DNA of 64,000 bases, taken from positions 338,687 through 402,686 of the forward strand of contig SVMG01000001.1 in NCBI GenBank assembly GCA_015067545.1, in the 5' to 3' direction. Below, piece after piece: positions 4,925-9,230 of this stretch; the stretch's first letter is position 1, and every line of letters starts with the position of its first letter. Source of the DNA: Oscillospiraceae bacterium (lineage in GTDB: Bacteria > Bacillota > Clostridia > Oscillospirales > Oscillospiraceae). The position numbers were made by a program, and so were the translations under genes. The notes beneath the pieces are model-generated. The model did no database searches. It was not told where the DNA came from and saw nothing but the letters and a program-made list of their open reading frames with translations.

Positions 4925-4953
4925 ATTATATCACAAAATCCCACATTAAGCAA
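4925..4953 (-). promoter_or_regulatory. Promoter of nrdG-dut
   Basis: Minus strand TTGCTT, 17-nt spacer, TATAAT. The -35 box overlaps the trxB stop codon. An imperfect GTGAT-N8-ATCAC dyad spans the -10 box. It is not an obvious NrdR box. Confidence 0.7.
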
Positions 4954-5872
4954 CGGCTACCGCCAGATATTCTTCAATTTCGTGCGCCGCCACAGCGCCG
5001 TCAGCCGTAGCCGTGACGATCTGGCGAACTGCCTTGGTACGGACATCTCCCACCGCATACACACCGGGCAAATTCGTTTCGGTGGACTCCCCTGCTACGA
5101 TATAGCCGGCCTCATCCAGCTCCAACTGATTGGCGAACAACTCCGTTGCGGGCGTTCTGCCAATGCTGACGAAAACGCCATCACACGGAATATTCTCACT
5201 TTCGCCGGTAACCTTGTTGCGCAGCACCACGCCCTCCACACGGTCATCGTGCAAGAGGGATGCAACTTCACTGTTCCACCGGAATTCCAGGTTTTCTGCC
5301 CTCTCCAGAGGCTCGTGATAGATCTTGGAAGCCCGCAGGGTATCTCTGCGATGGACAAGGATCACTTTCTTCGCAACTCTGGCCAATGTCAGCGCATCGG
5401 CCACCGCAGAATTGCCTCCACCGACCAAGACCACCGTCTTGCCCCGGTAGAACATCCCGTCGCAGGCAGCGCAGTAGTGCACGCCCCGGCCGGTCAGTTC
5501 CTGCTCCATGGGAAGGCCCAGCTTCCTGGGATTAGCGCCGGTTGCAACGATGACCGTGCGCCCATAAAACGTACCCTGATCCGTTTGCAATTCTTTTATT
5601 TCCTGATTCAGTTTTACAGACTGGACATCGGCATACACCGTTTCCGCACCAAAGCGCTCTGCGCCCTTTTGCATGCGCATGCCCAAATCAAAGCCGTCCA
5701 CACCCTCGTCAAAACCGGGGTAATTATCCACTTGATGGGTCAGCGCCATCTGGCCGCCTGCGGCCAATCGTTCCAAAACCGCCACCTGCAAACAGGCTCT
5801 TGCCGCGTACATTGCCGCCGTGTATCCCGCCGGGCCACCGCCCAGCACCAAAACATCATATACCTTTTCCAT
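4946..5872 (-). CDS. trxB: Thioredoxin-disulfide reductase
   Basis: A 308-residue low-molecular-weight flavoprotein that passes electrons from NADPH through FAD and a redox disulfide to thioredoxin. Seen are the FAD dinucleotide fold LGGGPAGYTAAMYAARA, the active-site CAAC in VHYCAACDGMFY (around residue 135), the NAD(P)H fold VVLVGGGNSAVADAL, and the C-terminal GVYAVGDVR motif. An AGGAGGT site lies 6 nt before the ATG. It is transcribed separately from trxA, but its promoter carries the same palindrome at the same spacing. Both are probably controlled by one regulator. Confidence 0.97.
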   Translation of the reverse strand: MEKVYDVLVLGGGPAGYTAAMYAARACLQVAVLERLAAGGQMALTHQVDNYPGFDEGVDGFDLGMRMQKGAERFGAETVYADVQSVKLNQEIKELQTDQGTFYGRTVIVATGANPRKLGLPMEQELTGRGVHYCAACDGMFYRGKTVVLVGGGNSAVADALTLARVAKKVILVHRRDTLRASKIYHEPLERAENLEFRWNSEVASLLHDDRVEGVVLRNKVTGESENIPCDGVFVSIGRTPATELFANQLELDEAGYIVAGESTETNLPGVYAVGDVRTKAVRQIVTATADGAVAAHEIEEYLAVAVA

Positions 5873-5896
5873 AACCTTACCTCCTGTTTTTTCTTT

Positions 5897-5938
5897 AGTA
5901 TATCCGAAAAGCGGCGGCTTTACTGTGATATTGTCACG
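5897..5938 (-). promoter_or_regulatory. trxB promoter with CRP/FNR-type palindrome
   Basis: Plus-strand TGTGATATTGTCACG (5924-5938) is a near-palindrome centred at 5931. The -10 TATACT (minus) lies at 5897-5902, exactly 28 nt from the centre. The -35 region has no consensus. If transcription starts 6-7 nt past the -10, the palindrome is near -41, the class II activator position. The trxA promoter has the same arrangement. Confidence 0.75.
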
Positions 5939-5940
5939 AT

Positions 5941-5971
5941 AAAGGAAAAGCCCACTGCCGAAGCAGTGGGC
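5941..5971 (-). terminator. Terminator after trxA
   Basis: Minus strand AGCCCACTGC, TTCG loop, GCAGTGGGCT, then TTTTCC. It follows the trxA stop by about a dozen bases. Confidence 0.9.
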
Positions 5972-5982
5972 TCTGCGGGTAT

Positions 5983-6291
5983 TTACGGAAGCATCGCGAG
6001 GATCTGCGCCTTGGATTTTGCGCCGGTGGACTGAGTCAAGACTTTGCCGTCTTTCATAACCACCAGCGTGGGGATGCTGTACACCTGGAACTTGGTTGCA
6101 AGCTCCGTCTGTGCATCCACATCCACCTTGCCCACCACGATGTGCTCATTTTCTGCGGCAATCTCATCGATGATAGGGCTTACCATCCGGCAGGGGCCAC
6201 ACCATGTGGCAAAGAAATCCAGCAGAACGACCTTCTCGCTCTTAACAACTTCGTTTTCAAAATTTTCCTTGGTGATATTCAGAACTGACAT
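5983..6291 (-). CDS. trxA: Thioredoxin
   Basis: A 102-residue thioredoxin with the classical active site FFATWCGPCRM (WCGPC) and the conserved cis-proline region YSIPTLVVMKDG. It reduces protein disulfides and donates electrons to peroxiredoxins, methionine sulfoxide reductases and similar partners, and is recharged by TrxB encoded just downstream. An AAGGAGG site precedes the ATG. It has its own promoter and terminator, so it is monocistronic. Its upstream palindrome matches that of trxB. Confidence 0.97.
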   Translation of the reverse strand: MSVLNITKENFENEVVKSEKVVLLDFFATWCGPCRMVSPIIDEIAAENEHIVVGKVDVDAQTELATKFQVYSIPTLVVMKDGKVLTQSTGAKSKAQILAMLP

Positions 6292-6324
6292 CTTTTTGTC
6301 CTCCTTGTTTTGTTTTGTAGCCTT

Positions 6325-6366
6325 ATTTTACCCCAAATTTCGGAGGACTTCTGTGATAATGTCACA
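6325..6366 (-). promoter_or_regulatory. trxA promoter with CRP/FNR-type palindrome
   Basis: Plus-strand TGTGATAATGTCACA (6352-6366) has perfect 5-bp TGTGA/TCACA arms, centred at 6359. The -10 TAAAAT (minus) is at 6325-6330, again 28 nt from the centre, with no recognisable -35. The half-sites resemble CRP-type TGTGA but the internal spacing is 5 rather than 6. Confidence 0.75.
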
Positions 6367-6371
6367 TTGAG

Positions 6372-8573
6372 TTATTTATTGTTCAATTCCTTCAGTACAG
6401 CGCCAAAACTGCTTGGCTCATCGGTGATTTTATACCACGTGTCATCCTGTGCTTTTACAAATCCACCAGCGTCATAGATAAAGCACACAGTATCTCCGTT
6501 TTCATATATAAGCGTTACGTTCCATATAATATATGCTGATTGCTGAGGCTTGTTCTCGAAGTCGGTTGTCAGATCCAGGCTTGAGAAGTAAGCGGCAACA
6601 ATATTTGCATCGTTTTCTGTAAAAGAATACTGATATTTTCCCTTGGCATCCGCTACCATTGCAACAAGAAGCTTTCCATTTTCTTTCAGCCCAAGCAACT
6701 CTGCGTCGTCTCCCTTAAAGAAATAAATCGGCTTCAGATCAAACCTATCAGGACTGAAAACATAGAGAAAATCGTCAATAACCACACCTCTGACTTGATC
6801 GAGAATACCCTTGATTTCCCCAATTCTCAGTTCCCGCAGCTGACTGCCCGTAAATTGTAGGAGCACATAGCCGTCATATGTGGGAATACCGAACAGATTA
6901 TTCTCCCTGTCAATGTAGTAAGCCTTATAATCGGTTGCAAACCTCGCATCCTTGACATAGGAACAAACAGAGGTCACGCCATTTTCGGTCTCTTGATAAA
7001 CTTCAACTTTTAAGCACCGCTTTTCGTCAAAGCCGATGCCCATAAGATAACCGTCCTTTAGTTGGATCAGGGAGCTGGAATATCCTTCGATTGTGCCGGT
7101 ATCCTTGACTGTGATATTTCCAAGATCAGTCATATCGAAAAAGAATACCGGATCCCTCAGCGTTACCACAACTGCGGTGCAGACATAGGCATAGTCTCCA
7201 TCAAAACGGACGGATTCTACCGTTTCACCCTCGGGGGCGAAATCCTTCACTTCTGCGAGTTTTTCCCATGTATCCACCTCGAAGCAGGTTAAATTGGCAT
7301 TCTGGTAAGTTGGAGGCAGCGGCATGGGCTCGCCGACAGGCGGAGCGGTATTTCCATAAGCATCCGTTGCGGGATTGGTGTTGCCGGATGCTCTGTAACG
7401 GCGGTTTGTGCCGGTAACGATGCGAAATACTCCGTTATGCTCATCCATGCTGTACTGATTCTTGATTGTACCCTCCACGCAGAAGGTGCCTTTCAGGGTC
7501 AGGCCGTTCTCGCCGTAACCCACACAGGCGATCTCGGTCATGGACTTGGTTGCAGTGATATGTTCTGCAATTTCTTCCTTATCTGTATAACCGCGGGTCA
7601 CATAGATGTTATCCCTGGATACATACAGCTGTCTGGAGTAGGACATAAATGCACCGGCATCAGTGACCGAAAGATCCTTGGTATCCAACAGGTTGATAAC
7701 TGTATAACTGTCACTTGTCAACTGTTCTGGAACGACAATGTTTTCTGCCGGGATGGGGTTCATATCCTCCGGCGTGCCATACTGGGGCAAATAACTGGAT
7801 TCGTCATCAAAATCCACTTGATATTTCATGCTGTAGCGGGTCATGACCATCAGCTGATCTCCTACCATCCGGGAGGATATCAGGCTGCCAGTCAAATAAA
7901 CTGTCTTCTGATCAATTACATGTTCCGGATCCTGCACATCCAGTAATACGATCTTCACAAAGTTTTTCCAACAATTATCTATCAGTTTATCTCCTGGAAT
8001 CAATAGAGTCACTCGGGATGCGTCCGCAGACAAATATATTTCCGGGCTATTGTAATATGCCTCTATGTCTCGTTTTAAATTCCAACTACTGACGATATGA
8101 GAATTACTACCATCGATGGAGTAAATATTCAAAGAGTACCCATCAAAGTAGAAGATATGGGTTTCGCTCCGTTTGATCAAGTCCCCTTCGTGGACACCTG
8201 CTACCTGGTGATCGGTGATCTCTATGGAAGTATTTGCGGAACTGCCGTTACTCGGTGCGTCACCTTGGAACAAAACATCTTCATTATTATCCTGATCCCA
8301 CTGCATATATTCTTCCCAGGTGAGTCCTTGCGCCTTATCCGGCAAATCCCGGCTGATAGCTTCAATGACCTTAAAATACTGGCTGTCGCTATATTGGGAA
8401 ATATCGATCCCGGGCTCAACAGGCACACCCTCATTACTCCCTTTTGGAAGCAACAAACCGGCCACAATGCACAGGCACAGCATGCCTGCTGTTGCCATCA
8501 GGGCCTTGCGTTGGGTTTGCTTTTTCTTGAGCTTGCCCTGAACGGATTGCATCCTTTCTTCATATGTCTTCAT
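6372..8573 (-). CDS. Membrane-anchored beta-propeller protein, candidate ECF partner
   Basis: About 733 residues resembling the Beta_propel family (secreted C-terminal beta-propeller proteins distantly related to WD40). After a short basic cytoplasmic tail (MKTYEERMQSVQGKLKKKQ) comes one membrane segment (ALMATAGMLCLCIVAGLLL). The rest is extracytoplasmic and contains repeated strands such as SSLIQLKDGYLMGIGFD and GDQLMVMTRYSMKY. The TTG start in the ORF track is replaced by the ATG at 8573, which has AAAGGTGGG 8 nt upstream. It overlaps the ECF sigma gene by 14 nt, so production is coupled. The layout suggests an anti-sigma or sensor role, but no known anti-sigma motif (such as a zinc HxxxCxxC) is visible, so this is inference. 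Confidence 0.8.
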   Translation of the reverse strand: MKTYEERMQSVQGKLKKKQTQRKALMATAGMLCLCIVAGLLLPKGSNEGVPVEPGIDISQYSDSQYFKVIEAISRDLPDKAQGLTWEEYMQWDQDNNEDVLFQGDAPSNGSSANTSIEITDHQVAGVHEGDLIKRSETHIFYFDGYSLNIYSIDGSNSHIVSSWNLKRDIEAYYNSPEIYLSADASRVTLLIPGDKLIDNCWKNFVKIVLLDVQDPEHVIDQKTVYLTGSLISSRMVGDQLMVMTRYSMKYQVDFDDESSYLPQYGTPEDMNPIPAENIVVPEQLTSDSYTVINLLDTKDLSVTDAGAFMSYSRQLYVSRDNIYVTRGYTDKEEIAEHITATKSMTEIACVGYGENGLTLKGTFCVEGTIKNQYSMDEHNGVFRIVTGTNRRYRASGNTNPATDAYGNTAPPVGEPMPLPPTYQNANLTCFEVDTWEKLAEVKDFAPEGETVESVRFDGDYAYVCTAVVVTLRDPVFFFDMTDLGNITVKDTGTIEGYSSSLIQLKDGYLMGIGFDEKRCLKVEVYQETENGVTSVCSYVKDARFATDYKAYYIDRENNLFGIPTYDGYVLLQFTGSQLRELRIGEIKGILDQVRGVVIDDFLYVFSPDRFDLKPIYFFKGDDAELLGLKENGKLLVAMVADAKGKYQYSFTENDANIVAAYFSSLDLTTDFENKPQQSAYIIWNVTLIYENGDTVCFIYDAGGFVKAQDDTWYKITDEPSSFGAVLKELNNK

Positions 8574-9099
8574 AAGTGATTCCCACCTTTTCAAGCAAAG
8601 ATTTCAGAGATGTCTTTGCCCGGGCAAGCAGGTTATACACCTGCTTTTTCGACCGGGACATGATGGCACAAACCTCATCGGGAGTAAAGCCGTCAAAATA
8701 GGTCAGCATCAACACCTGGCGATACTGCAATGGCAGTTCCTGCAAGCAGGCAAACACCGCCCTGTCGCGCTCCTTTTTGATAGCGTCCCCCTCCAGATCC
8801 CCTGCCGAGAGCACAGCTTCCACATCCTCCAACGGAACATTTTTCCGGTGGAAGCGCAGGTAATTTAAGCACCGATGGCGAATCGCCTTGTAAAGATATG
8901 CTTTGAAATGGGCCTCATCGTTAAACTTTCTGTCCCTGATCAGCACATCTGCCAGCGCGTCTTCCATCAGTTCCTCGGCAACAGATTCGCTCCCTACAAA
9001 ACTGCAGGCAAAGCGCACCAAGGGGTCTGAATATGTACGGATAATCGTTTCCAGAGAAGCAACTTCTCCAAAACCAATTTTTATACCAAATTGGGCCAT
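8560..9099 (-). CDS. ECF-type sigma-70 family RNA polymerase sigma factor
   Basis: About 179 residues with only regions 2 and 4, as in extracytoplasmic-function sigma factors. Region 2 is visible as IIRTYSDPLVRFACSFVGS...AEELMEDALADVLIR...AYLYKAIRHRCLNYLR. Region 4 is visible as LPLQYRQVLMLTYFDGFTPDEVCAIMSRSKKQVYNLLARAKTSL. The ATG at 9099 is chosen over the GTG at 9108 because an AGAGGTG site lies 6 nt ahead of it. Its 3' end overlaps the membrane beta-propeller gene, the usual arrangement for an ECF factor and its membrane partner. The stimulus is unknown and no clear autoregulatory ECF promoter could be recognised upstream. Confidence 0.92.
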   Translation of the reverse strand: MAQFGIKIGFGEVASLETIIRTYSDPLVRFACSFVGSESVAEELMEDALADVLIRDRKFNDEAHFKAYLYKAIRHRCLNYLRFHRKNVPLEDVEAVLSAGDLEGDAIKKERDRAVFACLQELPLQYRQVLMLTYFDGFTPDEVCAIMSRSKKQVYNLLARAKTSLKSLLEKVGITYEDI

Positions 9100-9230
9100 T
9101 ACGATCACCTCTTCATCCTTATAACACCTGAACTGTGGAAATTACTCACGATAATTTTCAAAAAATTCATCCATATCCCATTTCTTGTAGTATAATGCAA
9201 ATAAGGAACAATTGCAATGACTGCCCTCTG

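Follow-up and report, generated by a model that had tools for sequence, protein, structure and literature searches.

GTGA-N5-TCAC sites at the thioredoxin promoters of an Oscillospiraceae bacterium and their link to a candidate CRP/FNR-type regulator

The promoters of trxA and trxB in the analysed stretch of DNA (the window, 64,000 nucleotides, G000:C1:338687-402686, from an assembly of 1.8 Mb that is 97% complete) share the palindrome GTGA-N5-TCAC at a fixed distance from the -10 box, and the CRP/FNR-type regulator encoded at C1:229062-229724 very probably binds these sites and activates transcription in the class II manner under oxidising stress. Computation shows the sites with their spacing and conservation, the regulon, and the association with the regulator; that the regulator binds directly, that it activates and does not repress, and which signal (redox or nitrosative) it senses are inferences, and no binding or expression data are available. 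According to the proposed mechanism, a dimeric regulator of the CRP/FNR superfamily would bind GTGA-N5-TCAC at a centre position of -41, where the site overlaps a degenerate -35 element (xxGAAx), and would activate trxA, trxB and an operon for Zn-ribbon and 4Fe-4S ferredoxin-type proteins through class II contact with RNA polymerase. The trigger would be oxidising stress (O2, peroxide or related), with C45, C79 and C85 as the candidate sensor.

Sites at trxA and trxB and elsewhere in the genome

A sequence-only reading of this DNA had located a palindrome upstream of each gene, centred 28 nt from the -10 box. Both palindromes were found in place, TGTGATATTGTCACG at 5924-5938 and TGTGATAATGTCACA at 6352-6366, which read CGTGACAATATCACA (trxB) and TGTGACATTATCACA (trxA) on the gene strand (-). 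The spacing is also exact, as at both promoters 28 nt separate the central base of the palindrome from the first base of the -10 box, and exactly 21 nt lie between the 15-mer and the -10 box, corresponding to 22 nt after TCAC.

All features of the two transcription units lie on the minus strand. The trxA site (6352..6366) is centred on position 6359, equivalent to -41, and is kept before orthologous trxA/trxB genes in relatives. It is followed by a GAA element at 6349..6351 (-33 to -31), inferred to be a degenerate -35, by the -10 box TAAAAT at 6325..6330, by an inferred transcription start (A) at 6318, and by trxA itself (5983..6291), encoding a thioredoxin of 102 aa with a CGPC active site (TIGR01068 over cut-off; PF00085). 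The trxB site (5924..5938) is centred on 5931, again at -41, and precedes the -10 box TATACT (5897..5902) at the same spacing as in trxA, an inferred start (A) at 5890, and the gene for a thioredoxin-disulfide reductase of 308 aa (4946..5872; TIGR01292 over cut-off); the trinucleotide at -33 to -31 is GTA in this promoter. Neither start has been mapped experimentally, and both were placed by the alignment of 172 promoters described below. The two gene identities are firm on the family matches. Between the genes, at 5947..5974, lies an intrinsic terminator with a hairpin of -22.3 kcal/mol (z -5.3) and a subsequent U-rich tract, which fits the suggestion that trxA and trxB are separate transcripts. 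For the window, a Markov model of third order predicts 0.03 matches to GTGA-N5-TCAC-N22-TANNNT, against 2 observed, and none of 300 simulated windows contained two such matches.

Directly upstream of trxA, on the minus strand of the window, are genes for a protein of 740 aa that is apparently membrane-anchored (6372-8594) and for a 182-aa protein resembling sigma factors (8560-9108). The arrangement suggests a sigma factor linked to a membrane partner.

A scan of the whole genome, which had been proposed from the window alone, revealed one further perfect copy at C10:108950-108964, with the identical distance of 21 nt from the 15-mer to a -10 box, TATAGT. The operon downstream encodes a Zn-ribbon-like protein (84 aa) and a ferredoxin-type 4Fe-4S protein (211 aa). 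These genes (L003:1191-1445 and 559-1194, on G000:C10) are reminiscent of frdX of HcpR regulons, and the 84-aa protein is cysteine-rich. Looser scans were dominated by chance, with 54 matches versus 38 in the control when two mismatches were allowed and 36 versus 38 for the loose composite pattern of this type; therefore, the analysis relied on strict matches and on conservation alone. Several candidates were rejected. The match at C1:231785 (TGTGATATAATAACA), immediately 5' of a ZIP gene, is more likely a TATAAT promoter, and the one at C10:126634 has no convincing downstream gene. A recurrent match, GTGATCTTTTCACTAGCCAT...TCCTCCTAAAAT, present in several genomes (e.g., G010:C42:1820 and G012:C16:105875), is without the GAA flank; it probably reflects the conserved start of a gene on the opposite strand.

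Conservation, predicted regulon and promoter layout

Conservation at orthologous genes was examined in 60 relatives. The palindrome, for which a check in related genomes had been proposed earlier, is present 5' of orthologous trxA/trxB in most orthologs of the genus. In most close orthologs the site precedes trxB, or a joined trxA-trxB operon, at an equal distance to a TATACT-like box, and it is missing in several relatives without the regulator (e.g., G002, G003, G037, G038, G043, and G052). Across 41 genus genomes, GTGA-N5-TCAC-N21/22-TANNNT gave 133 matches, compared with 16 for the reversed-pattern control.

The loci of these genus-genome matches, together with 80 regulator-gene loci from GTDB genomes, yielded 186 distinct sites, and the distance from TCAC to the -10 box is exactly 22 nt in 172 of them. 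Judged by the downstream gene, thioredoxin or thioredoxin reductase is the target of 92 sites, followed by the group of rubredoxins, rubredoxin-like proteins, flavodiiron proteins and ferredoxins (21), a short-chain dehydrogenase (19), a cysteine-containing membrane protein without a Pfam match (16), ZIP transporters (7), rhodaneses (7), nitroreductases (4), CcdA/DsbD-type proteins (3), a ferritin, and singletons. The sites may accordingly be read as a predicted redox-defence regulon, composed of oxygen- and redox-defence genes and recurring across many gut Clostridia. No published account of this regulon was found, which is weak evidence because only open-access literature was covered, and a prediction in a regulon database is not excluded.

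The membrane protein behind 16 of the sites has ∼190 aa (..FFNILFAWLGL..GYCNRYCGRGQLF..WCVYCPMG) and no Pfam match at 1e-5; it occurs at L227 (site at -3218), L169, L185, L188, L231, L241, and L263. Its conserved cysteines suggest a membrane electron-transfer protein.

Since part of the site list was selected by pattern, spacing was tested again with no such restriction imposed. In the 80 regulator loci (702 kb), the counts of GTGA-Nx-TCAC for x = 2 to 10 were 3, 18, 2, 109, 10, 2, 3, 20, and 3, with the sole peak at x = 5. Of 84 flanked (RGA) sites, 59 have a -10-like hexamer at +22 and 9 have one at +21, and no other distance accounts for more than 5. No strict site was present in 23 of the 80 loci, where the flank was examined up to 5 kb. 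The N5 spacing, already recognized as unlike the classical ones, is thus real and clade-wide (109 N5 versus 10 N6), and even distant homologs of the regulator (about 40–45% identity; L079, L080, and L083) are still found near N5 sites of unchanged spacing.

The 172 promoters with identical spacing were aligned. The seventh base after the -10 box is A in 94% of them and is likely the transcription start; a start at this A places the centre of the palindrome at -41, fixed across the regulon and in line with the position near -41 first estimated. TTGACA is not present in the alignment. Instead, positions -33 to -31 show G, A, and A in 97, 91, and 91%. The left arm has no mirrored counterpart of this trinucleotide, which resembles a weakened -35 element (xxGAAx). 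The earlier statement that there is no -35 consensus is correct for both promoters of the window, but the regulon-wide GAA resembles a degenerate -35. A site centred at about -41.5, overlapping the -35 region, together with a poor -35 consensus, is characteristic of class II CRP-type promoters. The centre at -41 and the xxGAAx element support the anatomy of a class II activator, with both the start and activation itself being inferred.

Position -41 by itself leaves repression possible. The same protein could act at the same sites as a repressor that, while bound at -41, obstructs the -35 region until oxidation releases it, and the overlap of the site with that region as well as the conserved degenerate -35 (GAA, -33 to -31) are compatible with such a role. 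However, a repressor site needs neither the rigid distance to the -10 box, kept at one spacing in 172 of 186 cases, nor a weakened -35 at almost all of its targets, and the regulator's own promoter in the window's genome is a standard, full TTGACA-N17-TATACT, showing that this genome does not lack good -35 boxes. We therefore consider repression unlikely.

The candidate regulator and its link to the sites

The sequence-only reading had found no regulator of this type in the window. Indeed, the one PF00027 protein found in the genome, the CRP/FNR-type protein at C1:229062-229724, is encoded outside it, about 109 kb upstream. Its N-terminal part matches the cNMP_binding-type beta-barrel (PF00027, 29.7 bits, cut-off 27.5), and its C-terminal part the Crp-type helix-turn-helix HTH_Crp_2 (PF13545, 62.7 bits; PF00325, 34.2 bits; both over cut-off). 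R184, E185, and R189 of the recognition helix are invariant in 22 aligned orthologs. In CRP, R180, E181, and R185 correlate with bases of the binding-site arm, R-E-R reading TGTGA (PMC1274295), and since the three residues match those of the regulator, a TGTGA arm is predicted. In the superfamily test on site arms, the R-E-R residues match the gene-linked GTGA/TCAC sites. The N6-equivalent arm spacing, usual in the superfamily without being a strict criterion for it, is absent here. Every CRP/FNR motif quoted in PMC1274295 has an even centre and is equivalent to GTGA-N6-TCAC, one base longer. The proposal of an uncommon member of the CRP/FNR family is borne out.

Two cysteines of the regulator, C45 and C85, are conserved without exception in a set of 31 sequences, and a third, C79, in nearly all of them (DICLFSASC). 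The N-terminal cysteine cluster typical of FNR, a 4Fe-4S oxygen sensor, is not present in the regulator, in which only C45, C79, and C85 are conserved. It is plausible that the three cysteines form a thiol, iron-sulfur or heme redox sensor, none of which has been shown. In L209 and L248 the regulator gene lies under its own site, pointing to autoregulation in some genomes, whereas in the window's genome its promoter is a plain one of the sigma-70 type.

Within the genus, all 27 genomes with the regulator have sites, in comparison to 4 of 14 without it (p 9e-7). In genomes at least 90% complete, the corresponding numbers are 11 of 11 and 0 of 5 (p 2e-4). These p-values treat related genomes as independent and serve as a guide only. 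The four site-bearing genomes without a detected regulator (G017, G025, G034, and G060) are all 70–84% complete. At least six genomes (G012, G014, G016, G021, G022, and G028) have the regulator gene next to trxB or trxA-trxB, and around this gene the site density reaches 135 per Mb, far above the few sites per genome overall. The suggested search for a linked CRP/FNR gene and redox targets thus led to a regulator gene often beside the trx genes and to a regulon of redox genes. Taken together, the centre at -41, the missing -35 consensus, the conservation at trxA/trxB, the single CRP/FNR protein of the genome with its CRP-type recognition residues, the co-occurrence and linkage of this protein with the sites, and the redox regulon support the assignment as a class II CRP/FNR-type site.

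One could also suppose that the protein is HcpR, which controls hcp and frdX under nitrosative stress and likewise belongs to the CRP/FNR family; the third target in the genome is a ferredoxin operon reminiscent of frdX, and flavodiiron proteins are among the targets in relatives. The motifs of HcpR, however, TGTGAN6TCACA, TTGACN4GTCAA, and GTAACN4GTTAC, are all one base longer (PMC1274295), the genome's own hcp gene (C18:48110-49804) has no GTGA-N5-TCAC in its locus, and the paper on C. difficile HcpR makes no mention of thioredoxin or trxB, the site there being only at frdX-hcp. This identity appears very doubtful.

The odd centre of the palindrome raises another reading, namely that a regulator of a different family, e.g., one of Fur type with a 7-1-7 site (TGTGAYA-N-TRTCACA), acts here and the CRP/FNR protein merely co-travels. 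The site does resemble the 7-1-7 boxes of Fur/Zur. Yet the sites cluster at the high density given above around the CRP/FNR gene, co-occur with it and precede that gene itself, the GTGA/TCAC arms are those predicted from the CRP recognition residues, and a fixed -41 is untypical of Fur repressors, leaving this reading with hardly any plausibility. Chance palindromes, for which only the short arms and the frequency of two-mismatch matches (54 versus 38 in the control) could speak, are refuted by the conservation, the regulon-wide spacing and the Markov expectation and can be dismissed.

Returning to class II activation by the CRP/FNR protein, a wider proposal is that it represents an undescribed subfamily, with PDB 3DV8 as representative, that acts as master oxygen/redox regulator in many gut Oscillospiraceae and Lachnospiraceae through a new three-cysteine sensor, the arm spacing being one base shorter than in the known motifs of the family and the dimer placed exactly at -41. 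For this proposal as a whole, we regard the case as evenly balanced. Little is known about how strict anaerobes of the gut perceive oxygen and induce their thioredoxin, rubredoxin and flavodiiron defences. The present work yields a clearly delimited site, a list of targets, and a candidate regulator for which the structure of a relative has been solved. Cultured carriers include Anaerobutyricum hallii, Eubacterium ramulus, Oscillibacter valericigenes, and Ruminococcus sp. FMBCY1. The results also suggest that a CRP/FNR dimer is tunable to the N5 half-site spacing.

Relation to known systems

By domain tests the regulator is a member of the CRP/FNR superfamily, and by the motif and hcp tests it is not HcpR. 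With E. coli CRP at class II promoters it shares the cyclic-nucleotide-binding fold with HTH_Crp_2, the R-E...R residues, TGTGA arms, a centre near -41, and a weak -35. Unlike CRP, it has N5 instead of N6, so that the centre falls on the base at -41 and not at -41.5, as well as three conserved cysteines and redox targets. HcpR of Desulfovibrio, Clostridia and Porphyromonas is likewise a member of the CRP/FNR superfamily that controls redox and stress genes of anaerobes, ferredoxin-type targets among them, but differs in motif spacing, and the regulon described here is centred on thioredoxin instead of hcp.

The closest solved structure by sequence is PDB 3DV8, a Crp/Fnr regulator of Eubacterium rectale (E 7e-92, residues 3-218), which shares C45, C79, C85 and R-E...R with the regulator. 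A protein of Ruminococcus sp. FMBCY1 (L248) with the first 40 residues of 3DV8 is itself preceded by an N5 site. In the open-access literature 3DV8 was mentioned in one paper, only as a modelling template for PgRsp (PMC6955866), and neither a function nor a ligand nor targets of it were found. PgRsp, a Crp/Fnr redox regulator of Porphyromonas gingivalis modelled on 3DV8, is reported to bind heme, with Cys76/Met78/His85 as candidate ligands (PMC6955866). These candidate ligands lie in a loop region similar to the cysteine loop of the regulator; in contrast to the regulator, heme binding has been reported for PgRsp, and no shared binding motif is established. The second-best solved relative is CooA (1ft9), whose heme-ligand loop aligns beside C79/C85 of the regulator, although CooA is a CO sensor and its targets and exact ligands differ.
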